Shown here piece after piece: positions 20,982-42,518 of a stretch of 64,000 nucleotides of DNA (the first letter of the stretch is position 1; each line of letters opens with the position of its first letter). This stretch comes from Tahibacter amnicola. Lineage in GTDB: Bacteria; Pseudomonadota; Gammaproteobacteria; Xanthomonadales; Rhodanobacteraceae. The stretch covers positions 1,761,001 to 1,825,000 of the forward strand of contig NZ_CP104694.1 in assembly GCF_025398735.1 (NCBI RefSeq), read 5' to 3'. Below the pieces are notes generated by a model. It did no database searches and was not told the DNA's origin. It saw only the letters and a list, made by a program, of their open reading frames with translations. The translations under genes and the position numbers were made by a program.

Positions 20982-20990
20982 TCCTGCTTC

Positions 20991-21017: not shown

Positions 21018-21087
21018 CCTTCCTCATGCTGCCGCGCCAGCCATCGCGCGGCTTCCCGTGCCGGCCGCCTGAGCCTGGCCACACTTG

Positions 21088-21666
21088 CTATGCCCGTAGC
21101 GACTCGACGATGCCGTCGACAAAGCTGTTCAGGGTTTTCCTGCTGTGGTCCAGCTTCACCATGACCAGCAGCCCCTGATAGTTGAGCAGAAGGTGCCGCG
21201 CCAGCACCGCCGCGCTGCGGCCGGCGCGGACCAGTCCCATCCTCTGGGCCTTCTTGATCAACCGTTCAAATTCCACCTCGAACGCCTGCATGCCTTTGAT
21301 GACCTTGTCCCGGGTGCGTTCGTCCAGATTGCCGATCTCCACCGCCGTATTGGTCAGCAGGCAGCCGCGGCAGTCACCGAGCTTGTGCACATAGGTGGAT
21401 ACGAACAGCGCACGGATGTCCTCGATCGGATCGTCGCCGGACAGGAACTGGCGGATCCGCTTCGTCACGATGTGCTCGATGTAGTAGTCGAGCGCGGTGA
21501 GAAACAGCTCGTGCTTGTTGCCGAACGTGTTGTACAGGCTGCCGGCCTTCAGTCCGGTAACGGCTTCCAGATCTTTTATCGACGTCGCCTCGTAGCCGCG
21601 ACGGCGAAACACATGCATGACCTCCCGGGTGGTTTCGGCGATGTCAAAGCTCTTCTCTCTGGCCAT
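21088..21666 (-). CDS. TetR/AcrR family transcriptional regulator, divergent from the PKS cluster
   Basis: 192 residues from ATG at 21666. The N-terminal HTH reads TTREVMHVFRRRGYEATSIKDLEAVTGLKAGSLYNTFGNKHELFLTAL, with the SLYNTFGNKHEL recognition helix of the NemR/AcrR-like group. The C-terminal domain carries GDCRGCLLTNTAVEIGNLDERTRDKV, whose Cys may sense an electrophile or thiol-reactive ligand, as in NemR-type members. It is transcribed away from the megasynthase and is the obvious local regulator. The DNA just upstream has an imperfect CGTCC/GGACG inverted repeat (about 21699-21715) that could allow autoregulation. Confidence 0.9.
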   Translation of the reverse strand: MAREKSFDIAETTREVMHVFRRRGYEATSIKDLEAVTGLKAGSLYNTFGNKHELFLTALDYYIEHIVTKRIRQFLSGDDPIEDIRALFVSTYVHKLGDCRGCLLTNTAVEIGNLDERTRDKVIKGMQAFEVEFERLIKKAQRMGLVRAGRSAAVLARHLLLNYQGLLVMVKLDHSRKTLNSFVDGIVESLRA

Positions 21667-22124
21667 TGGACTTCTCAGTGGTCGTGCGCTCGTCCACTAA
21701 CCGGACGACGGTGCGCGGGATGGTCAGCCCGGGCCTCCCTGCACACTGGGTCGGCCCCCCTGGCCGACGCTGGTATCCCAACCCTTTGCCATTTCGATTG
21801 CAAGTGGTTCTGTGCATATGCGTGGCCAACAATCGTTTCGCAGTTCCGCCCGGGAAAGTGTCGCGGGATCTGAGACGTCAAATGCTTTCAATACCCCCGC
21901 TGCAGATCCGTGTTCCCCTTCCGGTCTAGTCCCCTGTGGCGCTTTCGTCACGAAGTTGTCCAACACTCACGCAACGTGGCCATATCTGTCGCTTCCCTGT
22001 TGCGAGAAACGTTAACTAGTTCCCTTCGCTACATATTCCGTAAAAGTTCCGTGAATGAATTTGCCTAGTTAGTGCGCTCTAAAAGGCCACTTTCGTTGCA
22101 ATAGATAGCAAAATGTCATTATTT

Positions 22125-22154
22125 TTGAACGGTCGACCAAATAATGTGTATGCT
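22125..22154 (+). promoter_or_regulatory. Predicted megasynthase promoter with palindromic operator in the spacer
   Basis: TTGAAC (22125-22130) and TATGCT (22149-22154) are separated by 18 bases, a good sigma-70-like arrangement. The spacer begins with GGTCGACC (22131-22138), a perfect 8-bp palindrome of the CGGTC type often bound by AcrR/NemR-like TetR regulators. A repressor bound there would cover the promoter. Assignment to the adjacent TetR protein is inference from position and motif style. Confidence 0.6.
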
Positions 22155-22210
22155 ACGGTTCCTGGAAGGTCGATCCGGTCGCGTGTGCAAGGTGCGGTCA
22201 TCGGCGTTTC

Positions 22211-22226
22211 TTGAACGGTCGGCAAA
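22211..22226 (+). repeat. Second copy of the TTGAACGGTCG element
   Basis: TTGAACGGTCGGCAAA repeats the first element (TTGAACGGTCGACCAA, 22125-22140) 86 bases downstream, with 13 of 16 bases identical, including the first 11. It may be a second operator or a second promoter (-35 TTGAAC with CAATAT at 22236-22241, 19-base spacing). Confidence 0.55.
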
Positions 22227-22267
22227 CAGGCCGATCAATATGCGAAATAGTTCTCTTTTCTCGTTCT

Positions 22268-22290
22268 CACCCCGTGCGTCGCACGGGGTG
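22268..22290 (+). promoter_or_regulatory. Leader hairpin upstream of the megasynthase start
   Basis: CACCCCGTGC-GTC-GCACGGGGTG, a perfect 10-bp stem with a 3-base loop, 75 bases before the ATG at 22366. It would lie in the 5' leader of the mRNA. No U run follows directly, so it may act as an attenuator partner, an mRNA-stabilising stem or an RNA-binding site. Confidence 0.5.
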
Positions 22291-22365
22291 CAGGGAAGTG
22301 TTTCTCTCAAGTTGTCCGGGACGCAGTGGGCGCCCTGGATCGGGCAACCAGAAAGGTTTACCTCG

Positions 22366-25300
22366 ATGAACACAGTACGGAAAAGCAAGAGTCGGACGGA
22401 TGCAGCAGGTTCTTCGGAAAAGATCGCTGTTGTCGGCATCGGTTGCCGCTATCCGGGTGCGGAATCGCCGCGCCAACTATGGGAAAATATCCTTTCTGCA
22501 CGACGCGAGTTCCGCCGCATGCCGGATGTGCGTCTGCCGATCGCTGACTATCACGACGGCGACCGCACCACGCCGGACAAAACCTACGGCCTGCGCGCCG
22601 CGGTGATTGATGGCTACGAGTTCGACTGGGCCGGCCGACGGATTCCGAAAACCACCTATGACGCCACCGATCTCGCCCACTGGCTGGCGCTGGATACGGC
22701 GTTGCAGATGTTGTCGGATGCGGGTTACGACGCTTCCCGACTGCCCGGTGAAACCACGCAGGTCATCGTGGGAAATACACTGACCGGCGAATTCACGCGT
22801 TCCAATACCTTGCGTCTGCGCTGGCCGTATGTCCGGCGCGCGTTGCGCGCCTCGGCGGAAAACTGCGGCATGCCGGCATCGGCATTGCAGGCGCTCGAAG
22901 AAGACATGGAACTGGTCTTCAAGTCCGCCTTTGCGCCGGTCAACGAAGACACGCTTGCCGGCGGTCTTGCCAATACCATCGCCGGTCGCATCACCAACTA
23001 TCTCAATCTCAACGGCGGCGGCTATGTCGTGGACGGCGCCTGCTGTTCCTCGCTGATTGCCGTCTACAGCGGAGCCGTTGCCCTGGCGGCCGGTGAGGCC
23101 GACTTCGTGATCGCCGGCGGCGTCGACATCAGCCTCGACCCGTTCGAGCTGGTGGGATTTGCAAAGACCGGTGCGCTCTCGCCCACGCAGATGCGTGTCT
23201 ATGACAGCCGCGGCAACGGCTTCATTCCCGGTGAAGGCTGTGGCTTCGTCGGCCTCAAGCGCCTGGCCGACGCGCAGCGCGATGGCGACAAGATCTACGC
23301 CGTGCTCGACGGGTGGGGTATGTCGTCCGACGGACGCGGCGGCATCACTGCGCCGAGCATCAGCGGCCAGGCGATTGCGTTGGCCCGCGCCTACCAGTCC
23401 GTCGACCTCGACGCATCGCCCCTGGACTTCATCGAAGGGCATGGTACCGGCACCTCGCTGGGCGACAAAGTGGAATTGTCGGCCATATCGCGAACCGTCA
23501 CTGCCGAAGGTGATTCGGCGGTGCGGACCTGCGGCGTGACCTCCTTCAAGTCGATCGTCGGACACACCAAGGCGGCCGCCGGTATTGGTGCATTCATCAA
23601 AGGCGTCATGGCGGTCAACCAGCGCGTACTGCCGCCGACGGCCGGCTGCGAACAGCCGCACGACGTTTTCCAGGGTGACGGACGCGCGATCTATCCGCTG
23701 CTCCGCGGCGAAAAGCGCGCACCCGACGGCGCGATGCGCGCCGGTGTCTCGGCCATGGGATTCGGCGGCATCAACGTGCACGTCACGGTGACGGCGCCGC
23801 CCGCCGCGCCACAGTCGCACCTCGCGCCGACTATCGACGAGCGCGCCGTGATGAGCTCCTCGCAGGATTCCGAGCTCTTCGTGTTCGCGGCGATCGACGC
23901 CGCCGAACTGGGCGCCCAGGTACGCCGCGTGCGCGCCGAGGCCGTTGATATCAGCCTCGCCGAGCTGGCCGACCTGTCGGCCTCGCTTTGCGAACGCATC
24001 GAAGCGGGGCAGGCGTGGCGTGCCAGTGTCGTCGCCTCTTCTCACGACGATCTGCTCAGCAGCCTGGATCAGCTGATTCAGCGCATCAGTCAGGGCGGGC
24101 TGCGCCAGGGCGACATCGTGGTCGACCGGGAACACCGCTACACGCTGAGCAACAGCGCGCGAAGCGCAGATCTGGGATTCGTCTTTCCTGGCCAGGGCTC
24201 GCAGCAGCTGTGCATGGCGCGCAGCCTGATCGAGCGTTTCGATTGGGCGCGATCACTGGCCCAGCAAGCCGACGCCTGGGCAGCCGAAGTCGGCACGCCG
24301 GGGCTGCTCGATGCCATTTATCCCAATCTGAACCTGTACCCCTTCAAGGCCGAGCGGACGGTACTGGCCGAGACGCTCATGCAGACCCAGCTTGCGCAGC
24401 CGGCGATCGTGCTGGCATCGCTGCTGTGGCTGGAGCGGCTGCGCCGTCTGGGCGTCGAGCCGGCGGCGGTACTCGGTCACAGCCTGGGCGAGCTCACCGC
24501 CTTCCACGCGGCCGGTGCCTACGATGCGAAGGCCCTGATCCAGCTGGCCACGGTGCGTGGCCGCTGCATGGCCGAATCCGCCGAGCGCATCGGCGCGATG
24601 GCGAGTCTCGCCTGTGCGCTCGAGCGGGCGAACACGCTGGTTGCCGCCGCGTCCTCCCACGGATACCTGGTGGTTGCCAACGTCAACAGTCCCGAGCAGG
24701 TCGTCGTGTCGGGCGACACCAGCGCCATCGATGCGGTGGTGTCGCAGGCGCAGCAGCAGGGCATCAACGCCCGCCTGCTGCCCGTCAGCAATGCATTCCA
24801 TTCCGAGCTGATGAATCCAGCAGCCGAGCGGCTGCTGGCCCAGGCGCCGGTACCCGCATCGCCTCAGGCGCTGCGCGCCACGGTGTACTCGGCCTGCCTG
24901 GCCGGCACGGTCGACGACTCGGTCGCGTTGCCGCGCTATTTCGCCGATCAAATGCTCAAGCCAGTGCAGTTCGTGGCTGCGACGCGGGCATTGACCGGCC
25001 GTCACAAGCTGCTGGTCGAAGTCGGGCCGGGCAGGGTGCTCTCGAACCTGATCTCGCGCATCGACGGCGGTGACACGCTCTGCCTGCCGTTGGAAGGCGA
25101 AGCCGAGCGCCACGCCGACTTCCACTGGGCGCTGGCCTGTCTCCATGCCTATGGTGTTGCGGTTCGCTGGACGCAGCTCCACGCCAACCGGCTGGTCCGC
25201 CCGTTCGTGCCGGCTGCGCAGAAGCAGTTCATCGTCAATCCTTGCGAGCGGCCGCTCGCAGAGCCGGTTCCGCGCCTCGAGCCAGTCTTCGCGGCGGCGT

Positions 25301-26478
25301 CGCCGGTGGCTGTGGCAAGCAGCGGTGGTGATTCCATCGATAGCGCCATCGATCAGTTGCAGCGTTACCTCTCGGACCGTGGTCGCTTCATCGCGGAAGT
25401 CATGAAGGCGGACATCCGCCACTCCGGCACAGGTACCGCACCTGTGCCGGCGGCGTCGGCCGCGGTGTCCGCGAGCGGCAGCATCGTGGAGCGCCTGCTG
25501 GCGGCCACGCCTGCCGCGCCGGCCGCCTCCGTCACGAAAAGCGCCCCATCGACACCCGCCGTCGCGGCCGTTGCCACGCCGGCGGCGGCCACGGGCGGCG
25601 CGACGCGATCGGTGCTGGTGCGCCTTGCGGCGGAGCTGACCGGATTCGACGCGCAGCGCATCGCGTTGTCGATGCGCCCGGTCGATGACCTCAACCTCGA
25701 TTCCATCAAGGCGGGGAGCCTGGTCGGGCGCGCTGCCGTTGAACTGGGTATCGCCGGGCAGCTCGACGCCAGCGAGCTGGCTTCCCTCACGCTCGAAGAA
25801 ATTGCTGCTCGCATGGACGCCCTGGTCGGACCGCAGAGCATCGCCGTCACGGCGCCTGTCACCCACGCCAGCACGGCCTCGGCGATGCCGATCCTGCTCG
25901 ATGCCGTCGCGCAGATGACCGGCTTCGCCACCAACCGCCTGACGCCGAACCTGCGTCTGATCGACGACCTCAACATGGATTCGATCAAAGTCGGCGCGCT
26001 GCTGGCGGAGGTGGCCAGCCAGTGCGGTCTCGCCGGGCAGGTGGATGCGAGCGAACTGGCCGGCTCGACACTCGGCGAGATCGCGGCACGCATGGATGCG
26101 CTGGCCGGGCCGGCGCGTCCTGCGCCAGCGGCGTCGACGTCCGCTTCGGCACCGGCGGCCATGACTGTCCTGCGCGATGCCGTCGCGCAGATGACGGGCT
26201 TCGCCGCGGACCGGCTTACGCCGGAGCTGCGCCTGATCGACGACCTCAACATGGATTCGATCAAGGTCGGTGCCTTGCTCGCCGACGTTGCCACGCGGTG
26301 TGGACTGGCCGGAAAAGTGGATTCCGCCGAACTGGCGGGCGCCACGCTGGGCGAAATTGCTACTCGTCTCGACGCGCTGGCAACCCCGGCAACGCCGAAG
26401 TCCTCGGCGCCGGTGGTCGCGGCTGCGCCCCGATCGACCCGGCGCGCCTGCCATCCTGGGTGCGTGGTTTCGAGCTGA
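22366..26478 (+). CDS. Iterative type I polyketide synthase, first part: KS-AT-ACP-ACP-ACP
   Basis: 1370 residues from ATG 22366, chosen for the AGAAAGG ribosome-binding site and the start of homology just after it (IAVVGIGCRYPGAESPRQLWENIL). KS: catalytic Cys226 (VDGACCSSLIAV), His359 (EGHGTGT) and His400 (VGHTKAAAG). AT: VFPGQGSQQL near 605 and Ser706 (GHSLGE). Three tandem acyl carrier domains follow an Ala/Pro-rich linker; phosphopantetheine Ser at 1113, 1206 and 1298 in DDLN(L/M)DSIK. The set resembles enediyne PKSE and PUFA synthase (PfaA). After ACP3 the frame ends in 20-odd unrelated residues, while the KR portion continues in the -1 frame, so this is half of a split or frameshifted megasynthase. 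Confidence 0.88.
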   Translation: MNTVRKSKSRTDAAGSSEKIAVVGIGCRYPGAESPRQLWENILSARREFRRMPDVRLPIADYHDGDRTTPDKTYGLRAAVIDGYEFDWAGRRIPKTTYDATDLAHWLALDTALQMLSDAGYDASRLPGETTQVIVGNTLTGEFTRSNTLRLRWPYVRRALRASAENCGMPASALQALEEDMELVFKSAFAPVNEDTLAGGLANTIAGRITNYLNLNGGGYVVDGACCSSLIAVYSGAVALAAGEADFVIAGGVDISLDPFELVGFAKTGALSPTQMRVYDSRGNGFIPGEGCGFVGLKRLADAQRDGDKIYAVLDGWGMSSDGRGGITAPSISGQAIALARAYQSVDLDASPLDFIEGHGTGTSLGDKVELSAISRTVTAEGDSAVRTCGVTSFKSIVGHTKAAAGIGAFIKGVMAVNQRVLPPTAGCEQPHDVFQGDGRAIYPLLRGEKRAPDGAMRAGVSAMGFGGINVHVTVTAPPAAPQSHLAPTIDERAVMSSSQDSELFVFAAIDAAELGAQVRRVRAEAVDISLAELADLSASLCERIEAGQAWRASVVASSHDDLLSSLDQLIQRISQGGLRQGDIVVDREHRYTLSNSARSADLGFVFPGQGSQQLCMARSLIERFDWARSLAQQADAWAAEVGTPGLLDAIYPNLNLYPFKAERTVLAETLMQTQLAQPAIVLASLLWLERLRRLGVEPAAVLGHSLGELTAFHAAGAYDAKALIQLATVRGRCMAESAERIGAMASLACALERANTLVAAASSHGYLVVANVNSPEQVVVSGDTSAIDAVVSQAQQQGINARLLPVSNAFHSELMNPAAERLLAQAPVPASPQALRATVYSACLAGTVDDSVALPRYFADQMLKPVQFVAATRALTGRHKLLVEVGPGRVLSNLISRIDGGDTLCLPLEGEAERHADFHWALACLHAYGVAVRWTQLHANRLVRPFVPAAQKQFIVNPCERPLAEPVPRLEPVFAAASPVAVASSGGDSIDSAIDQLQRYLSDRGRFIAEVMKADIRHSGTGTAPVPAASAAVSASGSIVERLLAATPAAPAASVTKSAPSTPAVAAVATPAAATGGATRSVLVRLAAELTGFDAQRIALSMRPVDDLNLDSIKAGSLVGRAAVELGIAGQLDASELASLTLEEIAARMDALVGPQSIAVTAPVTHASTASAMPILLDAVAQMTGFATNRLTPNLRLIDDLNMDSIKVGALLAEVASQCGLAGQVDASELAGSTLGEIAARMDALAGPARPAPAASTSASAPAAMTVLRDAVAQMTGFAADRLTPELRLIDDLNMDSIKVGALLADVATRCGLAGKVDSAELAGATLGEIATRLDALATPATPKSSAPVVAAAPRSTRRACHPGCVVSS
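25890..26385 (+). repeat. Near-identical ACP2 and ACP3 coding repeats
   Basis: Two consecutive ~276-base units, roughly 25890-26100 and 26165-26385, are highly alike in DNA (GATGCCGTCGCGCAGATGAC, CTGATCGACGACCTCAACAT and ATGGATTCGATCAA recur). The first ACP, around 25620-25830, is clearly more divergent. This indicates a recent internal duplication or gene conversion of a carrier domain. Confidence 0.75.
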
Positions 26479-29400
26479 CGTTGCAGCCGGAGTCCCTGCA
26501 GGTTTCGGATGTCTCCCTGTTGCGCCAGTTTGACGGTGCCACCGTATTCATTGCCCGTGACGAGGCTGATGCCGCGGTCGGGGACGCGATCGCCGAGCAC
26601 CTGCAGGGGCATGGCGCGCAGGTGATTGCCGGTGATCACGCCGCACTCAGGTCGCGTCCTGCCCGCAGCATCCAGCACCTGATTACCGTGCTGCCACGGC
26701 GGCCTGCCGATGGGGTCGCGAATCACGACAGCTTGGCGCCGGTGGTCGAGCGACTGAGTGATATCGCCGTCGTGTCGGCGGAGCAGGGCTGTGCTTCCGT
26801 GAGCATCGTGCAGTCCGGTGCCCTGGCGACGCTGGGGCGCGGAGACGTCGGCGTCACGGGCATCGCGCAGGGTTGTGCCCGCGCATTTGCCGCCAGCCTG
26901 CACCTGGAGCGACCCACGGCGAAAATTCGCGTACTCGACATCGAAGAGGCGATGGCGCCGGTGGATGTCGCGATTCGCGTGGCCGCGGAACTCGCCGTGG
27001 ACGGCGGGTACGTCGCCAGCTTCCACGACGGCGAGAGTGGGCGGCACATCGGGCGGATGGCGGTGGTTTCCGCCGCCGCAATGCCGCCACGTGACATCCC
27101 GTGGAACGGCGACGACGTGGTGATCGTCACCGGCGGCGGCAAGGGCATTACCGCCGAATGTGCGCTCGCGTTCGCACGGCAGACGCGGGTGCGCACGGTG
27201 CTGGTCGGCAGCACCACGACCGATCAGGCGTTGCGGTCCGGTAGCGAGATTGCCGCGACATTGGAGCGGTTCCGCAATGCCGGTCTTACGGCACGTTACT
27301 ACGCCTGCGATATCGCTGATGCCGGCGCAGTGTCCGAGCTGGTACGCCAGGTGGAAACGGAGGTTGGCCCGGTTAGCGGTTTCGTGCACGGTGCCGGCGT
27401 CAACAAGCCGCGCCGCGCCGAGCAGGTGAACGCCGCGCAGGCCATGGCCGAGATCGCACCGAAGTTGCTGGGCGCGCTGAACTTCGTTGCTGCGCTGGAT
27501 GCGAGCCCGCTCAAGCTCATCGTGGGCCTGGGTTCGATCATCGGCCTTACCGGGATGCCCGGCAATGCCTGGTACGCCTTCTCGAACGAGGCGCTGGACC
27601 TGGTCCTGCAGCAGCACCGTGCCCGGCATCCCTCGGTGGATGTCGTCACCGTCGCCTACAGCGTCTGGGCCGAAGTGGGCATGGGCGCGAAGCTCGGTAG
27701 TACCGACAAGCTCGCGAAAATGGGCATCGATGCCATTCCGAAGGACCAGGGTGTCGACTACTTCCTGGCCTGCGCGCTGCGGCGGCAACCGGCCAGCCAG
27801 ATCGTCGTCGCCAGCCGTCTGGGTGGGCTCGACACCTGGCCGATCGCGCGCGACCTGGCGCCGCTGCACCGGGATCGCCGCTTTGTCGAGGAGGTCATCG
27901 CGCATGAACCCGGCGTCGAGCTGGTCTGCCGCACCCGCTTGTCCATCGATAGCGACCTGTACCTGAAAGACCACTACTACCGCGGCGTCTATCTCTTCCC
28001 GACGGTCTTCGGACTGGAAGCGATGGCGCAGTTGGCTGGAGCGGTTCTTGACCGCGCAAACCTGTCCGCCGTGTCGCTCGAAAATGTCAGCCTGGAGCGG
28101 CCGATCGTCGTCAACGGCGGTGCCGGCGAACGGATCGAGCTGCACGCCCTGGTGCTCGATCGCACGGATGACGCGCAGCCGCTCAAAGTCCGTGTCGGCA
28201 TCCGCACCGAGCAGACCGGCTTCAAGCGCGACCATTTCGCTGGAACCGTCGTGTTCGCACCGCCGTCGCACGACGCAGGCATTCCGTCGCTGGCCAGTCG
28301 CAGTGCGGAGCCCGTGCCGATGCTCGACCCGATGATCGACCTCTACGGCGGCCTGCTGTTCCAGGGCGCAGTGTTCCAGCGGATCGAGCAGGTGTTCGAA
28401 ATGGGGTGGGGCGGCTCGTTCACGGCAGTCCGTCGTGGTGCCGAATCGACCTACTTCCATGCCGACCTGCCATCGCGGCTGCACCTGGGTGATCCTTCGT
28501 TCCGCGACGCATTGCTCCAGACTGCGCAGCTGTCGGAGAAGGGGCAGTACCTGCCGGTGCATATCGACACCTTGCACCTGCACGATCTCGAACAGTCCAA
28601 CCGCGGCACGATGCGTGTTGCCAACACCATCACCGGCCGGCGGTCGGATGAACTGCTGTGTGACGTGCACGCCTGCACCGAAGACGGACAGGTTATCGAG
28701 TCCTTGCTGGGCTACCGCCTCAAGCGCACGGTCGCCAACGACAGCGCGCCGACGCCGGACGACTGGGTTGATCCCAGCGAACGCGATGCGCGGCTGCTGG
28801 ATGATGCACTGTCGCAACACAGCGGGGCACTCAAGATCGCCGTCCCGAAGTTCTCTCTGGCGTTCGTGCCCGGGCTCTCGCAGATGGAGAAGGGCCGCCG
28901 GCATCTGAGCGAGCTGCCGCTGTTCCTCGAAGCCATTCACCGCGTCGCGCCGGACCTGGGCGATCAGCTGGATGCGCTGGAAATCCAGTGGAGTGCGTCG
29001 GGCAAGCCGTCCGTCGTCGGCTTCCCGGCCGATGACCTGAACGTCTCTCTGTCACACGACCTGAGCCATTGCCTGAGCGTGTGCGGATTCGGCGCGCAGG
29101 GCTGCGACATCGAGTCGGTCGACCAGCGGAGCGCAGAACAGTGGCGCGCACTCCTGGGTGACAAGCGGGAGGGCATCCTCGCGGCGCTGAATCATCGCGG
29201 CGACACGCTCGATGACGCCGGAACGCGGATCTGGTGCGCGGTGGAAAGCGCCCAGAAGGCGCTTGGCAAAGCGGCGGTGGACCTGGAAATCCTCCGTTCC
29301 GCCGGCGATGCGATCCTGTGGCGTGCGAGCGCCGCCGGCGAAGCCGAAGGCGTCGAGGTGCTGACCTTCCCGGTCGTGCTGACGCGTCCGCGGCGCAAGA

Positions 29401-30536: not shown

Positions 30537-30547
30537 GGAGCGCCCGC

Positions 30548-31117: not shown

Positions 31118-31144
31118 TATACTCTTCTCCTGGAGGATGGTCGG

Positions 31145-32461: not shown

Positions 32462-32463
32462 CC

Positions 32464-33123: not shown

Positions 33124-33142
33124 CAACCTAAGGAGTGTGCGC

Positions 33143-33589: not shown

Positions 33590-33617
33590 CGGTCAGCCCT
33601 TTCCGAAGGAGAAAATC

Positions 33618-34727: not shown

Positions 34728-34809
34728 ACCGAGAGCCAGGCCGCCGCGCGCCGCGACAGGGCACACCTGTTCCGGGCGCGGTCGCGTCGCCCATCATGGA
34801 GTTTCACGA

Positions 34810-35919
34810 ATGAAATCCAGTACGACCCAGCGCTTGATGGCGCTCGTGCAAGGCGTGGCGGTTTCTGTCGCGTCGTTGCTCTGCAGTACCACCGCCATGG
34901 CTTCGGACCATCGCGAATCGCCCGAGATCGTCAACTATCCGACCGCGGATATCGGCGACTTCTGGGCCTTCATCAGCCCCAGTGATCCTTCGAAGCTGGT
35001 GTTCGTGATGGCGGTGAACCCGTATGCGGTTCCGCTGATCTCCAAGTCCTACATTTTCTCGCCAGACATCCGCTACGTCTTCAAGATCGACAGCGACAAT
35101 GACGCGCGGGCTGACAGTGAGATCGTGTCGCGTTTCTCCAAGGAAAATGCGTTTGCGCATCCCGATGGTCACGGGGGCCTGACCACGCAGACCTTCCGCA
35201 CGACTTTCTCGATGGGGCTGGCACCGCTGGTCGGCAAGGTCACGCCGACGACGCAGGTGCGCAAGACGCCGCTCGATCCGATCATTCTGCAGGGGCGCGA
35301 CGGCACCAAGGCGTTCGCCGGCTTGCGCGACGACCCGTTCTTCTTCGACCTGGTCGCATCCGATCGCACTTTCTCTGGCATGGCCAACGGATTCCGCACC
35401 AAGACCGACCGCTTCGCCTGGTTCGCGGTGTCGGCGCTGGTGGTGGAGATTCCGCTCGCATCGGTCTATCGCGGGCAGCCACTGCGTCTGTGGGCAACCA
35501 CCGAGGAGCTTGGCCAGCGCGGGTGGAAGCAGATCCAGCGCGTGGGCAATCCGGCAGTGAAGGGCGTCTACATTCCCGAGAACATGACTGAGCGTTTCAA
35601 TGCAAGCGAACCGCACAACGACGTGCGCGACTTCAAGGCGGTCGCGGAGCAGTCGGCGCGGACCATGTTCGGGCTGCAGGGGGAAACGCTTGATCGGCTG
35701 ATGGGCATCATCATCCCCGACACGCTGACCCTGGATCCGACCCAGCCGACCAAGTCGCCGAACGGCCGTGCGCTGGACGATGACCTCGACCTGATGTTCT
35801 GGTTCAACCTCCATGCACCTATCGCTTACGCGCCCGGCGATCTCGATGGCGTGCACGGCAACGACGTGCCCAACAGCACCACGTTCCCGTACCTCGCACC
35901 ACCGATCCATCCGCAGTAA
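34810..35919 (+). CDS. DUF4331 domain protein, paralogue 2 (exported)
   Basis: 369 residues from ATG 34810 with GGAG upstream; signal peptide ending AMA|SDHRESPE. It keeps every block of the first paralogue (DIGDFWAFISPSDPSKLVFVMAVNP, RDDPFFFDLVASDRTF, LDDDLDLMFWFNLHAPIAYAPGDLDGVHGNDVP) at the same spacing. The two are clearly tandem duplicates that have since diverged (about half identical by eye). The equal length suggests they may assemble together. A strong terminator lies after this gene. Confidence 0.88.
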   Translation: MKSSTTQRLMALVQGVAVSVASLLCSTTAMASDHRESPEIVNYPTADIGDFWAFISPSDPSKLVFVMAVNPYAVPLISKSYIFSPDIRYVFKIDSDNDARADSEIVSRFSKENAFAHPDGHGGLTTQTFRTTFSMGLAPLVGKVTPTTQVRKTPLDPIILQGRDGTKAFAGLRDDPFFFDLVASDRTFSGMANGFRTKTDRFAWFAVSALVVEIPLASVYRGQPLRLWATTEELGQRGWKQIQRVGNPAVKGVYIPENMTERFNASEPHNDVRDFKAVAEQSARTMFGLQGETLDRLMGIIIPDTLTLDPTQPTKSPNGRALDDDLDLMFWFNLHAPIAYAPGDLDGVHGNDVPNSTTFPYLAPPIHPQ

Positions 35920-35959
35920 GTGACGCAGGCGATTCGCGCCAATGGCGCGGATCGATGCA

Positions 35960-35988
35960 ACCCGTCCGGACGTCGCGTCCGGACGGGT
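35960..35988 (+). terminator. Strong hairpin after the second DUF4331 gene
   Basis: ACCCGTCCGGACG-TCG-CGTCCGGACGGGT, a perfect 13-bp stem with a 3-base loop, 41 bases after the stop. It divides the cluster into an upstream synthase/DUF4331 unit and a downstream TPR/HupE/receptor unit. Confidence 0.75.
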
Positions 35989-36062
35989 ATCCACCCCCTT
36001 TGCCGAATTCGAGCGACGGTGCGCTGTATCTGCGCACGCCGCGCTGTCTGGAAGTGATTGCC

Positions 36063-37265
36063 GTGAAGATCCGATTGGGCAACTGGTTGTGCGGCCTGCT
36101 CGTGGCCGCAACCGCCACCGGTTCTGCCGATGCGGCCGAACCCTACGTGCCGTCCGACGACGGCGAAGTCCTCGTCCAGCTGCCCGCGTCGCTGCGGGGC
36201 CAGCAGACCCGCATCGACGGGTTGAAGGCGCAGCGGGATGCCGCGCCAACGGATGTCACCGTTGCGACCGAACTGGCCAGCCATTATCTGGATGTGGCCA
36301 GGCGCGACCGCAACCTGCGCTACTACGGTTATGCCGAATCGGCGATCCAGCCCTGGCTGTCGCGCGCGGACGTTCCATTGGCGACGCTGGTCGTGCGCGC
36401 CGACATCCACCAGTACTTCCATCGCTTCGATGCGGCCAAGGCAGACTATCTGCAGGTGGTCCGTGCCAATCCCGCGTATTCCAAGGCCTGGTTCAGCCTG
36501 GCGATGATCAGCGCCGCCCAAGCCGACCATGAGACCGCGCTGGCGCACTGCCAGGCGCTGATGCGGCTCAATGTCCATTCGTGGAAGTTGTGCCGTGGTG
36601 CTGTCAGCGGGGGAACGTCCGGCATCGCGCAAGGCCAGGCGCTGCTCCGGTCCGCGCTGGACGAGATTCCGTCGTCGGCGGTGGATGAGCGGATCTGGGC
36701 GCTGACGGCGTTGGCGGATATCGCGGTGCGCCTGGAGCGGATCGACGAAGCCGATATCTATTTCAAGGAGGCACTCGCCCTGCGTAAAGACAGTGCCGAC
36801 GTGCTGTTGCCGTATGCCGATTTCCTGCTCGAACAGGGCCGCGCACAGGACGCGCTGGCCGTGCTGGCGAACGATGGGGACACGCTCAATGGCGCGGTCC
36901 GGCGATGTCTGGCGCTGCAAGTCACGTCGCCGGGGGACATCGACGCCTGTCGTCTGGCGCTGAAGGCGCGATTTGCCGATAGCGCGTTGCGTGGCGATCC
37001 GCCGTACTTCAACGAGGAAGTCCGCGCCAATCTTTATCTGTTCGACGATGCCGCGCGAGCCCTCGCCCTGGCCAAGGAGAACTGGCAAATGGTCAAGACG
37101 CCGGCCGATGCGCAGCTGCTGCTGCGCGCCGGACTGGCGGCAAACGATGTGGATGCCGTAACGGCCGTTCGCCAGTGGCTCGCTCCCGTTGCCGCTGCCA
37201 ATCCGGCGCTCGTGCGTCAGCTCGCTGTCGGACCGGAGGCATCCTCGCATGGCGCCGCTCCGTAA
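36063..37265 (+). CDS. Exported tetratricopeptide-repeat protein
   Basis: 400 residues from GTG 36063 (VKIRLGNWLCGLLVAATATGSADA), the start that gives a clean signal peptide; GTG 36054 is possible. The body is made of helical TPR-like units, for example VATELASHYLDVARRDRNLRYYGYAESAIQPW, LVVRADIHQYFHRFDAAKADYLQVVRANPAYSKAWFSLAMI and ADIAVRLERIDEADIYFKEALAL. TPR proteins mediate protein contacts. Genes of this kind are recurrent neighbours of DUF4331 and HupE/UreJ genes, suggesting a shared periplasmic assembly. The downstream gene starts inside its 3' end (17-base overlap). Confidence 0.82.
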   Translation: MKIRLGNWLCGLLVAATATGSADAAEPYVPSDDGEVLVQLPASLRGQQTRIDGLKAQRDAAPTDVTVATELASHYLDVARRDRNLRYYGYAESAIQPWLSRADVPLATLVVRADIHQYFHRFDAAKADYLQVVRANPAYSKAWFSLAMISAAQADHETALAHCQALMRLNVHSWKLCRGAVSGGTSGIAQGQALLRSALDEIPSSAVDERIWALTALADIAVRLERIDEADIYFKEALALRKDSADVLLPYADFLLEQGRAQDALAVLANDGDTLNGAVRRCLALQVTSPGDIDACRLALKARFADSALRGDPPYFNEEVRANLYLFDDAARALALAKENWQMVKTPADAQLLLRAGLAANDVDAVTAVRQWLAPVAAANPALVRQLAVGPEASSHGAAP

Positions 37266-38382
37266 TATTCTTCTTCTGCTGTTGACCCTGTGCGGGATGG
37301 TGCGGACGGTGTCCGCGCATAGCCCCAGCACGAGCTACCTGTACCTGCAGGCGCAGGAATCGCTGATCGACGTTCGGTGGGACGTCTCCCTGTTCGATCT
37401 CAACGACGCCGTCACCCTGGACACCAACGGCGACGGCGCGGTGACCTGGGGCGAATTGCGCAACCAATCCGCGCGCCTCGCGACACTATTGGCAAGCCAT
37501 GTCGTGATCAGCCAGGACGGCGCATCCTGCGCGCCAGTTCCGCCGATAGGTCTCAGCGTGTTGCACCGGCAGGGTGATACGTTTGCGGTCGTACAGCAGG
37601 GCATGCGCTGCAAGGAAGCGCTGACGTCGGCTGACTTGCGCTATTCGTTTCTGTTCGAGCGGAATCTCAAGCACCGTGCGATAGTGACGCTGAATGCGGG
37701 CGAGCCGACGGCGTCCGTGCTGGTGGCTTCGCCGGAGCAGCGTACCGTCGCGCTGCGTTTCGACGACAACGCAATGGCGACCTCCTTCGGCGGATTTGTC
37801 GTCCATGGCATGCACCACATCCTGGAAGGGCCGGATCACATCCTCTTTGTCTGCACGCTGATCATCGCCGTGCTGCTGCCGCGGCGGCGTCCGAAGACGG
37901 ATGCCCGTGGCCTGGGTTCCCGCCTGTGGGAACTGACCAAGCTGGTCTCGGTGTTCACGCTGGCGCATTCCCTGACGCTCGGGGCGTCGGCGCTGGGGCT
38001 TGTTGCAGCACCGGTCCGGTTCTTCGAATCAGCGATTGCGGTGTCGATCGTCGTGATGGCCCTGAACACCTTGTGGCCGGTTGTACCTGACCGGTTCGAG
38101 AAGGGCGTCGTGTTCGGTTTCGGCCTGCTGCACGGCCTGGGTTTCGCCACCTTGCTGCAGGAGCTGTCGCTGCCGCAGACAGGCAGGCTTGCCAGTCTCG
38201 CGGGCTTCAATATTGGCGTCGAGATCGGCCAGCTGGCCATTCTCGTGGTGGCCGTACCTGTCGTGCTGTCCGTTTCGTTGTGGCGGCCGGCGCGGGCAGC
38301 CTTGGTCATGGCCAGCGCATTCGGCATCGCCGTGATGGGCACCTTCTGGTTCCTCCAGCGCGCACTGGGCATCGGGGCCTGA
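37249..38382 (+). CDS. HupE/UreJ-like membrane protein
   Basis: 377 residues from ATG 37249, overlapping the TPR gene by 17 bases. A signal peptide (NILLLLLTLCGMVRTVSA) precedes a periplasmic domain of about 170 residues beginning HSPSTSYLYL, with an acidic DLNDAVTLDTNGDGAVTWGEL segment. About seven membrane helices follow, opening with the His-rich VHGMHHILEGPDHILFV characteristic of HupE/UreJ metal-transport-like proteins; later helices carry TLAHSLTLGASALG and GFGLLHGLGFATLL. The family includes nickel/cobalt permease relatives. Metal transport is plausible, but the partner and substrate are not shown. Confidence 0.85.
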   Translation: MAPLRNILLLLLTLCGMVRTVSAHSPSTSYLYLQAQESLIDVRWDVSLFDLNDAVTLDTNGDGAVTWGELRNQSARLATLLASHVVISQDGASCAPVPPIGLSVLHRQGDTFAVVQQGMRCKEALTSADLRYSFLFERNLKHRAIVTLNAGEPTASVLVASPEQRTVALRFDDNAMATSFGGFVVHGMHHILEGPDHILFVCTLIIAVLLPRRRPKTDARGLGSRLWELTKLVSVFTLAHSLTLGASALGLVAAPVRFFESAIAVSIVVMALNTLWPVVPDRFEKGVVFGFGLLHGLGFATLLQELSLPQTGRLASLAGFNIGVEIGQLAILVVAVPVVLSVSLWRPARAALVMASAFGIAVMGTFWFLQRALGIGA

Positions 38383-38516
38383 TGCCCTCGCGCTCGCATC
38401 GCCGGCATCCGGTACGGGAGGCGGCTGCGTAAGGAAAGGGGATGACCCTGTGCCGACGCGCGCTCCGCATCGCAATGCCGTGTGTTCAACGCATCGGATC
38501 GAAAGGAAATACAACG

Positions 38517-39293
38517 ATGACTGCTTTTGACACGGAACGGGTCTTGCGCGTCAGACACTGGACGCCGGCCTATTTCAGCTTCACCACGACGCGTGGCACC
38601 GGCCTTCGCTTCGAGAACGGCCAGTTCGTCATGATCGGGCTGCCGGTCGATGGCAAGCCGCTGGTGCGTGCCTACTCGATCGCATCGGGGAACTGGGAAG
38701 AGGAGCTGGAGTTTTTCAGCATCAAGGCGCCGAATGGTCCGCTCACCTCGCGGCTGCAGCATCTGCGGGAAGGTGACGACATTCTGGTGAGCCGCAAGCC
38801 GACAGGCACGCTGCTCACGCACGACCTGCATGCCGGGCGCAACCTTTACCTGTTGGCGACCGGCACCGGCCTGGCGCCGTTTCTCGCCGTGATCAAGGAC
38901 CCGCAGACCTATGAGCGGTTCGAGCGTGTCGTCCTGGCGCACGGCGTGCGCTACGAATCGGACCTGGCCTATCGCGACTACCTTACGCGCGGGCTGCCCG
39001 AACACGAGTACCTGGGCGAGACGATCCGTCGCCAGCTGCTGTACTACCCGGCCGTCACCCGCGAGCCCTTCGCGCACCAGGGTCGGCTCACCCGGTTGAT
39101 GGCGAGCGGCCAGATGATGCGGGACCTGGGTATCGAGCCGCTCGACGCGGCGCGCGACCGCGCCATGATCTGCGGCAGCCCCCAGATGCTGTCCGACCTG
39201 CGCGAGCTGCTGGATGCACGCGGCTTCACGGCCTCGCCGCGCATCGGTACACCCGGTGAATATGTCTTTGAACGGGCTTTTGTGGAGAAATGA
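38517..39293 (+). CDS. fpr: Ferredoxin--NADP reductase
   Basis: 258 residues from ATG 38517 with AAAGGAA ribosome-binding site. FAD-binding RAYSIAS (residues about 50-56) and GPLTSRLQHL, NADP-binding LATGTGLAPFLAVI near 113, a CGSPQM motif near the end (MICGSPQML) and the bacterial C-terminus YVFERAFVEK. This is the subclass of short bacterial ferredoxin/flavodoxin-NADP reductases (Fpr). Reduces ferredoxin or flavodoxin with NADPH. In this setting it could feed electrons to the cluster's oxidative enzymes, or be an independent redox gene. Confidence 0.9.
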   Translation: MTAFDTERVLRVRHWTPAYFSFTTTRGTGLRFENGQFVMIGLPVDGKPLVRAYSIASGNWEEELEFFSIKAPNGPLTSRLQHLREGDDILVSRKPTGTLLTHDLHAGRNLYLLATGTGLAPFLAVIKDPQTYERFERVVLAHGVRYESDLAYRDYLTRGLPEHEYLGETIRRQLLYYPAVTREPFAHQGRLTRLMASGQMMRDLGIEPLDAARDRAMICGSPQMLSDLRELLDARGFTASPRIGTPGEYVFERAFVEK

Positions 39294-39309
39294 CGTGCGG
39301 GAGCAGGAA

Positions 39310-41451
39310 ATGATGACCGCGCCGGTCAGAACGAATCAACCCGGTGTGGCGCTGCCGCAGGTTCCGGCGGCCCCTAGGTCGATCGCCCGTCGGGCGACGC
39401 TGGCCTTGGCCGTCTGCGCGACTGTCGCCGGCGTTCCACCGATGGTGCATGCCGAGCCGCTGGCCGAAACGCGGTTATCCGCGATCGATGTCGACGAAGT
39501 AAATGGCGAAGCGGCCAAGCCCGGCGTGGAGGCTGCATCGGCCGGTATCGTCACGGCGGCCGATCTGCGCGTACGTCCGCTGTCACGTCCGGCGGAGGTG
39601 CTGGAGGTGATGCCGGGCCTGGTTGCGACCCAGCACAGCGGCAACGGCAAGGGAAACCAGTATTTCCTGCGTGGATTCAATCTCGATCACGGGACCGATC
39701 TCTCCACGACGATCGACGGAGTGCCGAACAACCTGCGCACGCACGGCCACGGGCAGGGCTACAACGACCTCAACGGACTGATCCCGGAACTGATCCGGCG
39801 CATCGAGTACCGAAAGGGCCCCTACGCGGCGGACGACGGCGATTTCTCGTCTGCCGGTGCGGCGCATATTCGCTATGTGGATAAAGTTTCCAGGCCATTC
39901 GTCGACGTCACGGCCGGCGAGCACGGCTTCGCCCGCGTACTGGCGGCCGGATCGGGCGAGTTCGACCACGACCGGTCGCTCTTGCTCGGGGTGGACCTGG
40001 GCCGCAACGACGGTCCCTGGGAAAAGCCCGAAGACGCCCGGCGGGCGTCCGTCATCGCGAAGTTCCGCCAGGGCAATGCCGATACGCGCTGGGGCATCGC
40101 ATACCTGGGCTACCGCAATCGCTGGGCGTCGAGCGACCAGGTCCCGTTGCGGGCGGTTGAATCCGGCCGCATCGGGCGGTTCGGTCAGATCGACCCGGAC
40201 CTTGGAGGGGATACGTCGCGACATACCCTCGTGGCCGATGTGACGCATGCGACTGATACCGGCGAATGGCAGGCGAACGCCTACGCGGTTCGCTACCGGC
40301 TCGACCTGTTCTCCAACTTCACCTACCTGCTGGAGCACCCGGATGAGGGAGACCAGTTCGCGCAGGCGGACGATCGTACCTACTACGGCGGGGCGCTGAC
40401 GTATTCGCACCGGTGGACTTCGGGCGAGGTCCTGCACGAACTGGCCACCGGTGCCGAACTGCGCATCGACGATATCGATCGCGTAGGGCTCTATCACACG
40501 CGGGCGCGTCAGACGCTGGGTGTCGTGCGGCAGGACCAGGTCGCGGAAACATCCGCCGGCCTGCATGCCAGCCTGCGCAGTCAGTGGACCAGCACGTTTC
40601 ACAGCGTCGTTGGCCTCCGCGGTGACTACTACGATGCCGACGTCGACAGCCTGCTGTCGCCCAATTCCGGTGCTGCCAGCCAGTTCCGGGCCAGCCCGAA
40701 GTTCAGTCTGATGTATTCCCCGGTGGCACCGCTGGCGCTCTATGCCAATGCGGGGCGCGGCTTCCATTCGAACGACGCGCGCGGTGCGACCACCCGCGTC
40801 AATCCGCTGGCCCCCTCCGAGCCTGCGCAGCCACTGGATCTCATCGTGCCCACGCGCGGCGAGGAAGTGGGAATCCGCTACGCCCCGGTGCCAAACCTGA
40901 TGCTCAGTGCCGTGTTCTGGCGGCTGCGCATCGGATCGGAACTGGTGTTCTCCGGCGACGGCGGTTCGACCGAGGCGAGCCGCGCCTCGCGCCGCCAGGG
41001 TATCGAGGCGGAACTGACCTACCGGCCATTGCCGTGGCTGCGGCTGGAGGCGGATTTCGCGCGTTCGCAGGCGCGTTTCACGGAATTCGATCCGGCCGGC
41101 GACGCCATCCCCGGTGCTATCGAGAAAGTGGCATCCGTTGGCATCTACGTGGACCACGGCGGCCGCTGGTCCGGTGGCCTGCGCTACCGCTATCTCGGCC
41201 CGGCACCGCTGGTGGAGGACGGCAGCGTGCGCTCCCGCTCGACCACGCTCGTCAATCTGGATGTCAACTACGCCATCAGTACGAACGCGGCGCTGCGGCT
41301 GGAGGTGCACAACCTCCTCGACAGTGACGACAACGACATCACCTATTTTTACGAGTCACGCATGACCGGTGAAACGGATCCTGTCGCGGACATCCATTTC
41401 CATCCCGTGGAGCCGCGCACTGTGCGCCTTTCCTGGCGCTACACCTTTTGA
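39310..41451 (+). CDS. TonB-dependent receptor
   Basis: About 713 residues from ATG 39310 (ATG 39313 and GTG 39295 are alternatives; AGCAGGAA precedes). Signal peptide ARRATLALAVCATVAGVPPMVHAEPLAETRLSAIDV. Plug domain: RPAEVLEVMPGLVATQHSGNGKGNQYFLRGFNLDHGTDL and a His-rich loop NNLRTHGHGQGYND then RRIEYRKGPYAADDGDFSSAGA. It continues as a beta-barrel ending PRTVRLSWRYTF with terminal Phe. The His/Asp-rich plug loop and HupE-like neighbour hint at a metal or metal-chelate substrate, but uptake or release of the cluster's own product is equally possible. Confidence 0.9.
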   Translation: MMTAPVRTNQPGVALPQVPAAPRSIARRATLALAVCATVAGVPPMVHAEPLAETRLSAIDVDEVNGEAAKPGVEAASAGIVTAADLRVRPLSRPAEVLEVMPGLVATQHSGNGKGNQYFLRGFNLDHGTDLSTTIDGVPNNLRTHGHGQGYNDLNGLIPELIRRIEYRKGPYAADDGDFSSAGAAHIRYVDKVSRPFVDVTAGEHGFARVLAAGSGEFDHDRSLLLGVDLGRNDGPWEKPEDARRASVIAKFRQGNADTRWGIAYLGYRNRWASSDQVPLRAVESGRIGRFGQIDPDLGGDTSRHTLVADVTHATDTGEWQANAYAVRYRLDLFSNFTYLLEHPDEGDQFAQADDRTYYGGALTYSHRWTSGEVLHELATGAELRIDDIDRVGLYHTRARQTLGVVRQDQVAETSAGLHASLRSQWTSTFHSVVGLRGDYYDADVDSLLSPNSGAASQFRASPKFSLMYSPVAPLALYANAGRGFHSNDARGATTRVNPLAPSEPAQPLDLIVPTRGEEVGIRYAPVPNLMLSAVFWRLRIGSELVFSGDGGSTEASRASRRQGIEAELTYRPLPWLRLEADFARSQARFTEFDPAGDAIPGAIEKVASVGIYVDHGGRWSGGLRYRYLGPAPLVEDGSVRSRSTTLVNLDVNYAISTNAALRLEVHNLLDSDDNDITYFYESRMTGETDPVADIHFHPVEPRTVRLSWRYTF

Positions 41452-41455
41452 CGAG

Positions 41456-41489
41456 CCCTTCCGCGGTTGCAGCGCACCTCTGCGAAGGG
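41456..41489 (+). terminator. Imperfect hairpin after the TonB receptor
   Basis: CCCTTCCGC pairs with GCGAAGGGG with one bulge across a 17-base loop, starting 4 bases after the stop codon. A weak terminator candidate. Confidence 0.35.
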
Positions 41490-41534
41490 GGCGCTGCGGG
41501 TGTGGGAGGGCGACGATTGCCGAGGACGGAACCG

Positions 41535-42518
41535 ATGAAGCAGATCCAGTTTGCCCGGACGGGCATCCCCAGCGAGGTCGTGGCGTGCGTGGATGTCCCC
41601 GAGCCGGCTTCGCCGGGGCCCGGCGAAGTGCTGGTGCAGGCCCAGGCGTTCCCCATCAACCCGGCCGACATTCTGACGCTGCGCGGCGGCTATGCCCGGC
41701 GCGCGGACGGCGTCGGCGTGCCCGGATCCGAGGCCGTTGGCGTGGTCGTGGCGACCGGCGAGGGTGTCGCGAACGTCGCCGTCGGTGATCGCGTCATCTA
41801 CCTGTGCCGTGACAACTGGTTGGCGTTCAAGTGCGTGCCTGCGCACCAGGTCATGCCGGTGCCACGCCAGGCAGACCTGCTCCAGCTGGCGATGCTCAAA
41901 GTGAATCCGGCGACCGCGCACTGCCTGCTGGAACGGTTCGTTGCGCTTGGCGCAGACGACTGGGTGATTCAGAACGCGGCCAATTCCGGCGTCGGCCGCA
42001 GCCTCACCCAGTTGGCGCGCCTGCGCGGGATCCGCTCGATCAGCGTGGTGCGTAGGGACGACGTGTCCGCCGAGCTCATGGCGTTGGGGGCTACGGCCGT
42101 TCTGCGCGATGGTGACGACCTGGCAGCCCGGGTTCGTGAGCAGACGGGCGGTGCACGCGTCGCGCTGGCGGTGGACGCCGTTGGCGGCGCCGCGACCGCA
42201 CGCCTGGCGGACGCGGTGTCGGACGGGGCCACCCTGGTCAACTACGGCGGCATGCAGGGCGAAGCATGCATCGTCCGGCCGGATCAGCTGATCTTCCGCG
42301 ACATCGCCGTGCGTGGCTTCTGGCTGACCCGTACCGTGGAGTCCATGCCCTACGCCGACGCGAAGCTGATGTACGACGCGCTGTCCGGCCACGTGCTGGC
42401 GGGCAACCTGCACACGCCGGTGGAGGCGCGCTATCGCGCCGAAGAGATACAGCAGGCCGTGGCGCACGCCGAGCGTGGCGGTCGCCATGGCAAGGTGCTG
42501 GTGGAATTCAGCAACTAG
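41535..42518 (+). CDS. MDR-superfamily oxidoreductase, trans-2-enoyl reductase (MECR/ETR)-like
   Basis: 327 residues from ATG 41535 with GAGGACGGA upstream. Medium-chain dehydrogenase fold without the structural-zinc Cys cluster: MKQIQFARTGIPSEVV, AFPINPADILTLRGGYARR, GSEAVGVVVATGEG, then the nucleotide fold IQNAANSGVGRSLTQLARLRGI and RDDVSAELMALGATAVL. The QNAANSGVGR signature and the INPADI/GGY segment are those of mitochondrial-type 2-enoyl thioester reductases, which reduce enoyl-ACP/CoA with NADPH. The megasynthase has no enoyl reductase domain, so this enzyme could supply that step in trans. A general quinone reductase is the alternative. Confidence 0.82.
   Translation: MKQIQFARTGIPSEVVACVDVPEPASPGPGEVLVQAQAFPINPADILTLRGGYARRADGVGVPGSEAVGVVVATGEGVANVAVGDRVIYLCRDNWLAFKCVPAHQVMPVPRQADLLQLAMLKVNPATAHCLLERFVALGADDWVIQNAANSGVGRSLTQLARLRGIRSISVVRRDDVSAELMALGATAVLRDGDDLAARVREQTGGARVALAVDAVGGAATARLADAVSDGATLVNYGGMQGEACIVRPDQLIFRDIAVRGFWLTRTVESMPYADAKLMYDALSGHVLAGNLHTPVEARYRAEEIQQAVAHAERGGRHGKVLVEFSN

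Follow-up and report, generated by a model that had tools for sequence, protein, structure and literature searches.

A probably acquired gene island in Tahibacter amnicola joins an enediyne-like iterative synthase to a new set of partner genes

The synthase RerA/RerB of Rhodococcus erythropolis PR4 is an iterative enzyme that makes hexa- to nonaenes, and its ketosynthase (KS) has been described as enediyne-like (PMC11563203). The enediyne polyketide synthase (PKS) cassette is defined as E3/E4/E5/E/E10 in the available part of PMC5181780, and enediyne-type KS clades are mentioned for cyanobacteria and lake metagenomes in the available parts of PMC4247773 and PMC5826242; the wider family has therefore been noticed before. 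Here we describe a related synthase and its partner genes in a 64-kb stretch of the Tahibacter amnicola genome (NZ_CP104694.1), called the window below; positions are those within it, following the numbering of an earlier note on this DNA. The genes fill a segment of about 21.7 kb. We consider it likely that this segment is a horizontally acquired island, with a RerA/RerB-like synthase that makes a linear polyene, which is then oxidised and handled at the cell surface. Observation covers the homology and architecture of the synthase, the conservation of its partners in Dyella, the absence of the segment from genus-mates and the common origin of the synthase-linked HupE proteins; the product, tailoring, transport and regulation are what we infer.

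The synthase is spread over two open reading frames (ORFs), with the following features.

22366..26478, + strand: synthase part 1, with the order KS-acyltransferase (AT)-acyl carrier protein (ACP)-ACP-ACP; the longest ORF runs from 22144; 55% to D. subtropica over 1413 columns.
26460..30536, + strand: synthase part 2, with the order ketoreductase (KR)-dehydratase (DH)-phosphopantetheinyl transferase (PPTase)-domain Y-thioesterase; conservation in this frame sets in at about 26430; earliest start codon GTG 26460.
29502..30521, + strand: double hot-dog thioesterase (domain Y plus thioesterase, TE), within synthase part 2.

Active-site-like motifs are readable for the KS, AT, three carriers, KR, DH, PPTase and thioesterase. 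The carriers were counted from three DSIK motifs (residues 1186, 1279 and 1371), Pfam reporting one ACP stretch. The PPTase-like stretch, which has no Pfam hit, was assigned from its motifs (SLSHD, CDIE and ESAQKALGK) and from the alignment with the C-1027 PKS, inside which it falls. The best solved relatives of the thioesterase are DynE7 and CalE7 (E 2e-13), and a PDB sequence search of 27,870-28,770, around the DH, gave nothing useful. Judged from the window synthase, the ‘domain Y’ of RerB appears to be the first half of a FatA-like double hot-dog.

The synthase aligns with the PKS of the C-1027 record (NZ_CP013739.1) at 41% over 1004 columns in KS-AT and at 32% over 869 columns in KR-DH-PPTase, and the thioesterase of that record is 29% identical to its last domain. 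The window KS has 52% identity to the C-1027 KS and 40% to that of the PfaA encoded elsewhere in the genome. In a KS tree, the synthase family and the actinobacterial enediyne PKS (PKSE) stand apart from the genome's own KS rows (100/99, with the warning that long branches meet among those rows), and the split of the wider family from the actinobacterial PKSE is unsupported (67/77). By homology, both the PKSE (E) and the E10 thioesterase of the cassette are present, the latter fused and doubled and not free-standing. At E 1e-3 the window shows no match to any of the E2, E3, E4, E5, E6, E7 and E9 genes in the C-1027 record, a search that for E4 and E5 covered the window only. By annotation, E3, E4 and E5 would be the DUF1702, CRTAC1 and RnfD genes of that record. 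DUF1702, the family of two genes upstream of the C-1027 PKS, has no member in the window genome as a whole or in either Dyella genome, and the same search finds it in the C-1027 plasmid and in the genus-mate G003. An enediyne cluster, in which divergent companions would convert the polyene to a warhead, is suggested by the homologous PKS and thioesterase and by the seemingly full C-1027-like cassette that G003 carries on two contigs; given the unmatched companions, the genome-wide lack of DUF1702 and the fused, doubled thioesterase, we regard it as very improbable, and membership of the enediyne cassette was dropped. The synthase resembles the polyene-making half of enediyne biosynthesis and is not an enediyne cassette.

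Polyunsaturated fatty acid (PUFA) synthases offer a second comparison. The best NCBIfam model for part 1 is PfaA (TIGR02813), with 459 bits against a cutoff of 1010, and the island genes scanned include one KS only, with no PfaD and no second KS/chain-length factor (CLF). A PUFA-like or secondary-lipid synthase that supplies a membrane fatty acid, with the last oxidoreductase of the island as enoyl reductase, would fit this best model, the tandem carriers and the PIG3-type reductase at the island end. Against it stand the score far below the cutoff, the single KS without PfaD or CLF, the PIG3-type reductase not being found in the Dyella loci, the separate PfaA of the genome (1357 bits) with its PfaD, and the KS tree, which separates the island KS from the PfaA KS (100/99, with the same long-branch warning); membership of the PUFA synthases was dropped, and we find this reading improbable. 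The genome's own PfaA/PfaD cluster, which passes both cutoffs, lies at G000:C1:3562000-3581999 (L111), and a PfaA-like system below cutoff lies at G000:C1:1185000-1204999 (L110). Between 3.45 and 3.69 Mb of the same genome, open frames as long as 10,445 aa contain KS matches, which suggests a very large modular PKS region.

On described architecture, the closest characterised system found would be RerA/RerB of Rhodococcus, which makes a linear polyene the best product prediction. The synthase likely starts at ATG 22,366, behind two operator-like repeats, because the first 74 residues of the ORF that opens at 22,144 are not conserved in Dyella. Homology passes from one reading frame to another around 26,390-26,430, and in the new frame conservation begins before GTG 26,460, the earliest codon at which translation of that frame could start. 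In D. subtropica all domains are encoded in one ORF of 2,755 aa. From these alignments, the two-gene split of the window synthase is probably not by design; a sequencing error, a recent break and a true split would explain the frame change alike. The D. silvatica synthase (L021 7114-8994, 8873-15364) is frame-interrupted elsewhere, between KS and AT.

Comparison within the genus places the synthase in a segment with a recognizable empty site.

20985..42662, no strand assigned: island segment of ~21.7 kb, flanked by genes for an E1-type 2-oxoacid dehydrogenase and a cyclase/FHA protein.

The two flanking genes (the E1-type dehydrogenase and the cyclase with its FHA domain) are found in all eight genomes of the genus, the window genome included, and share one contig in seven of them, the window's own among these; G003, with its flanks on different contigs, was left out of the empty-site comparison. 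Six genus-mates match the window flanks up to 20,984 and from 42,663 at 80-85% (blastn), with a further flank piece at 74% in one of them, and none of the 21.7 kb between the flanks matches at E 1e-5 in their site. The flanking genes are ~130 bp apart in G007. G005 and G006 carry other DNA there, 7.3 kb and 8.4 kb long; of four ORFs scanned in the G005 stretch, three encode a subtilase, a CHAT protein and a metallo-beta-lactamase-fold protein, and the fourth has no hit. Across the genus, the gap between the dehydrogenase and the cyclase/FHA gene varies from about 0.13 to 21.7 kb (L124 and L125 are other stretches of the site). The site is thus variable within the genus, and gain of the island in the window lineage is the simplest reading; the island was probably acquired horizontally, in a direction that we infer. 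The absent segment spans TetR to the last oxidoreductase, the same limits as the earlier note had drawn, and its fourteen ORFs form one real unit. Besides the synthase, it holds the following features; the true starts of several downstream genes likely fall inside their longest ORFs.

21088..21666, - strand: TetR-family regulator (Pfam TetR_N, TetR_C_13); 52-53% to the Dyella copies in the same position.
22125-22140 and 22211-22226, + strand: two operator-like repeats, by pattern match, upstream of the conserved synthase start.
30548..31117, + strand: DUF4188 (now Monooxy_af470-like) monooxygenase (Pfam PF13826, E 1.4e-36); 74% to D. subtropica.
31145..32461, + strand: group A-like flavin adenine dinucleotide (FAD) monooxygenase with GASVAG, DG and GD motifs; 63-64% to both Dyella.
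32458..33123, + strand: DJ-1/PfpI protein; its top NCBIfam model, HchA, scores below cutoff; joined with SnoaL in a single ORF in both Dyella.
33137..33589, + strand: SnoaL-like protein (PF12680/PF07366); 51-55% to Dyella.
33618..34727, + strand: DUF4331 protein a (PF14224, E 6e-38); N-terminus export-signal-like by eye, then SDHRESP.
34810..35919, + strand: DUF4331 protein b (PF14224, E 1e-34).
35955..37265, + strand: TPR protein; longest ORF, true start probably internal; 42-44% to Dyella.
37249..38382, + strand: HupE/UreJ_2 membrane protein (PF13795, E 5e-43); in the synthase-linked clade (100/96).
38517..39293, + strand: Fpr-like ferredoxin/flavodoxin-NADP reductase (PRK10926, E 3.6e-42, below cutoff); 61-62% to Dyella.
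39214..41451, + strand: TonB-dependent receptor (PF00593, PF07715); longest ORF, true start probably internal.
41535..42518, + strand: PIG3-type oxidoreductase, in an ORF from TTG 41448 (TIGR02824, E 1.4e-38, below cutoff); inside the absent segment.

Twelve of the 14 ORFs recur in both D. silvatica and D. subtropica, largely in order. Synthase part 2 has matches at E 1e-10 in 33 of 147 genomes, a set made up of the window genome and its relatives; full-length relatives are found in three, the window genome and these two Dyella, and the other 30 cover the protein partly, mostly in the KR region. A partial, more distant relative is present in G003. The FAD monooxygenase, at E 1e-15, is found in the same three genomes. 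In D. subtropica the order is TetR, Fpr, synthase, DUF4188, FAD monooxygenase, PfpI and SnoaL (as one ORF) and two DUF4331 genes, with TPR-HupE later; a second contig of D. silvatica carries FAD monooxygenase, PfpI and SnoaL (again one ORF), two DUF4331 genes, TonB, TPR and HupE. Fpr adjoins TetR in both, and the PIG3-type oxidoreductase was not found in either Dyella locus. The stretch of ~8.5 kb between the DUF4331 pair and TPR-HupE in D. subtropica (L022 6259-14757) holds an MFS transporter and a flavin monooxygenase-like gene; D. silvatica has TonB there.

The enediyne-like synthase family spans multiple phyla. A synthase search of 369 genomes of the class gave matches at 1e-40 in six, the window genome included; in two of these (G281 and G345), partner genes were not found in the stretches examined beside the synthase. 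Near the G345 synthase lies a weak match to CRTAC1 of the C-1027 record (26%, E 6e-8), which may be an enediyne-type companion. One scan with two short peptide patterns gave 29 wider synthase loci, of which one (L053, a weak KR-region match) was dropped. Ten neighbours were annotated for the Microcystis, Okeania, desulfobacterial and myxobacterial loci, and ten for those of Pandoraea and Rhodoferax. A search for the partner genes (E 1e-4, best two matches per gene) saw none at 26 of the remaining 28 loci, an upper estimate with several contigs ending close to the synthase; the two Dyella loci keep nearly the whole set. In the openly licensed literature searched, such a cluster was not found described, nor was a characterised cluster with the island's gene set, and enediyne was not named among the literature matches listed for Rhodanobacteraceae/Dyella/Luteibacter/Tahibacter.

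The earlier note had listed these genes, with TetR divergent, the synthase and eleven same-strand genes, as one undescribed-looking unit around an enediyne/PUFA-type iterative synthase that lacks the companions of either class. Profile hits and motifs confirm the genes at their coordinates; recurrence of the gene set, and of much of its order, in two Dyella and absence of the segment in six genus-mates bear out the single unit; and the window indeed has no E3/E4/E5 match, nor do the island genes scanned include a PfaD or second KS. The product that it proposed, a polyene or modified chain, likely holds. ‘Undescribed-looking’ goes too far: the synthase architecture has a characterised counterpart in RerA/RerB (PMC11563203), and DUF4331-TPR-HupE also occurs on its own. 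The note had also held that its view would fail if neighbours kept the synthase and not the downstream genes, and this is half the case, with no partners seen at 26 of 28 loci and nearly all kept in two Dyella. The synthase type is known and the partner-gene set is new.

Other enediyne-type loci came to light in the same searches. G003, a gammaproteobacterium of the window genome's genus, has an apparent complete enediyne PKS cassette (L115 3518-126, the PKSE, cut by the contig end, with 4444-3575, 6396-4522 and 8392-7427; L024 26-2898). Compared with C-1027, identities are 42% for DUF1702, 44% for CRTAC1, 50% for RnfD, 42-47% for the PKSE and 49% for a free E10-like thioesterase, which lies directly behind the PKS, as in S. 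goshikiensis (L109). Two short contigs in a fragmented assembly carry the cassette (GC 67-68%), their adjacency presumed and contamination possible. Two further gammaproteobacterial loci (L097 of G393 and L098 of G177) have an enediyne-type PKS beside a separate thioesterase, at 44-51% to that of C-1027, and a DUF1702 match (32%; L051 5235-6023) beside a myxobacterial fused-thioesterase synthase is possibly a link between the two types.

Downstream of the synthase, genes for DUF4331, TPR and HupE_UreJ_2 proteins stand in a row, and this module is also found elsewhere. Among the 147 genomes, DUF4331 occurs in 32 and HupE_UreJ_2 in 45, mostly without the synthase; the two lie within ~4 kb of each other outside synthase clusters in 18 genomes, 17 of them without a full-length synthase (counted by eye, and including G075, where HupE scores under the family cutoff). 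Two more DUF4331-HupE pairs are present in the window genome. In three of four plasmid HupE records, DUF4331 is followed by a TPR-type or hypothetical protein and then by HupE; in the fourth (Deinococcus) HupE is beside a phosphoesterase, with no DUF4331 annotated. In a HupE tree of 18 chosen rows (15 of 30 loci, which have 52 places in all, plus three; the window genome's fourth HupE copy was left out), the three synthase-linked proteins form one clade (100/96), apart from the genus-mates' copies, which points to HupE, and probably the module, having moved together with the synthase. For DUF4331 protein a, a PDB sequence search gave nothing useful, and a predicted structure (pLDDT, the predicted local distance difference test score, 50.3 from four sequences) was not used. 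DUF4331 was not named in the openly licensed literature searched, and HupE UreJ was not found among the literature matches listed with TonB-dependent/tetratricopeptide.

These data bear on two alternatives. The first holds that two unrelated operons are adjacent, one for a polyene synthase and some oxidases and one for a DUF4331-TPR-HupE-TonB envelope system unconnected to the polyene, as the occurrence of the module without the synthase and the separation of TPR-HupE from DUF4331 in D. subtropica might indicate. We consider this rather unlikely, since the three HupE proteins linked to a synthase group together as a single clade, each of the three genomes has its DUF4331 pair downstream of the oxidases, and in the window both parts lie within one contiguous segment missing from genus-mates. 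In the second alternative, the module would take up the product, a polyene acid that is secreted and binds a metal or cofactor; HupE is a nickel-related protein. The TonB receptor, the HupE-type permease and the export-signal-like N-termini of the DUF4331 proteins would suit such a system; no chelating group is predictable, the role of HupE_UreJ_2 is putative and, at the loci seen, the stand-alone modules are not accompanied by such a synthase, which makes this reading improbable.

We return to the reading of an oxidised polyene, for which the tailoring genes are of interest. The DUF4188 protein passes PF13826 with 125.8 bits against a gathering score of 25, and in D. silvatica its first 24 residues are found at a contig end. 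This af470-like family is above cutoff in six of the 147 genomes, strongly in the window genome, D. subtropica and G056 and weakly in three others; G056 has a strong af470-like protein yet no synthase match. A PDB sequence search with the DUF4188 protein gave nothing useful, and one paper in the openly licensed literature searched names DUF4188. The available part of PMC7020470 reports that Fma-ABM (af470) converts prefumagillin by oxidative cleavage. The FAD protein shows GASVAG, DG and GD and has no WxWxIP (no W-x-W-x-I was found in it). WxWxIP is the motif of FAD-dependent halogenases; that assignment was therefore rejected, and hydroxylation or epoxidation is likelier than halogenation. 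Plasmid matches to the monooxygenase comprise 10 records, one of which, from Kitasatospora, has no synthase match in the 25 kb examined.

With regard to regulation, the TetR gene is divergent from the synthase. The pattern TTGAACGGTCG(A/G)C was found in 2 copies against 0.02 expected, having been drawn from these very sites, and both Dyella have a related TTGA(A/C)CGATC upstream of tetR.

Together, these genes can be arranged into a proposed pathway. From what is known of the family, the enediyne-type iterative synthase would build a linear, all-conjugated polyene from malonyl units: KS and AT would condense on the three tandem carriers, activated by the built-in PPTase, and KR and DH would leave one double bond per round. 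The FatA-like double hot-dog thioesterase would release a polyene or polyenone, which, with the E3/E4/E5 companions lacking, would not be converted to an enediyne. The af470-like and FAD monooxygenases, possibly fed by the Fpr-like reductase, may oxidise or cleave the polyene, and PfpI and SnoaL may process reactive carbonyl or epoxide intermediates. The DUF4331x2-TPR-HupE-TonB module may handle the product, or something that the product binds, at the cell surface, and TetR may repress the operon from the operators upstream of the synthase. A more specific proposal, that of a distinct Gram-negative polyene pathway in which af470-like cleavage gives a polyene acid or aldehyde and the DUF4331-TPR-HupE-TonB module places or recovers the product at the outer membrane, is put forward tentatively, as a possibility that we would not bet on.

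Several observations weigh against this picture. The likeness to RerA/RerB rests on described architecture, not on sequences, and chain length is not readable from sequence. A real frame interruption could leave the enzyme inactive or have it act as two separate proteins. GC content is 64.9% in the island and 65.8% in the rest of the window, leaving no compositional trace of transfer, and absence in genus-mates could also be explained by loss. In D. subtropica, TPR-HupE is ~8.5 kb from the DUF4331 pair and the TonB gene was not found in the 37 kb of the locus examined; in D. silvatica the cluster is on two contigs, its adjacency presumed; and TonB and Fpr are placed differently among the three genomes. 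The window TonB is equally similar (41%) to the D. silvatica cluster copy and to the stand-alone L056 copy. The af470 analogy is at family level, a lead for a polyene-cleaving step and not proof. Finally, a promoter scan of 21,000-40,900 found 0 sigma-70-type sites against 2.7 expected by chance.

The wider significance is that a multi-phylum enediyne-like synthase family is now tied to defined partner genes, and that the segment which holds them has a known empty site. Gene removal can therefore test what the end product is and what DUF4331, HupE_UreJ_2 and bacterial af470-like monooxygenases do. If a cleaved polyene and a dedicated outer-membrane machine prove true, this would provide the first substrate for the uncharacterised DUF4331/HupE module.

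Set beside the known systems, the window synthase shares with RerA/RerB the order KS-AT-tandem ACP-KR-DH / PPTase-domain Y-thioesterase. RerA/RerB has two ACPs, compared with three in the window synthase, and is split after the DH, whereas the window synthase is split after the ACPs and that of D. subtropica is one ORF. With the C-1027 enediyne it has in common a homologous KS-AT-ACP-KR-DH-PPTase and a hot-dog thioesterase; it differs in lacking an E3/E4/E5 match, in its three ACPs and in a thioesterase that is fused and doubled. The Pfa and secondary lipid synthases, as covered in the available part of Shulse and Allen 2011 (PMC3098273), are alike in their tandem ACPs and KS-AT-ACP-KR order and unlike in that the window lacks a second KS/CLF and PfaD, carries PPTase and TE in the chain and scores below the cutoff. 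The Microcystis and Gloeothece loci have the same synthase type with a double hot-dog end and FAD enzymes downstream, but halogenase-like FAD proteins in place of the oxidase/DUF4331 set; the former also carries an alpha/beta hydrolase and an HlyD protein, the latter a carotenoid oxygenase. The fumagillin enzyme Fma-ABM (af470) names the Pfam family of the DUF4188 gene and acts on a substrate with a polyene chain, although it belongs to a fungal, terpene-polyketide hybrid pathway. Finally, the stand-alone modules of Pseudoalteromonas, Lichenicola and Marinobacter share with the island the gene order DUF4331, then a TPR-type or hypothetical protein, then HupE, and a TonB gene follows in the L056 copy. 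They differ from the island in a single DUF4331, in small extra genes in two records, in having no synthase in the stretch, and in the sigma/anti-sigma genes upstream in L105 and the divergent sigma factor gene before the L056 copy.

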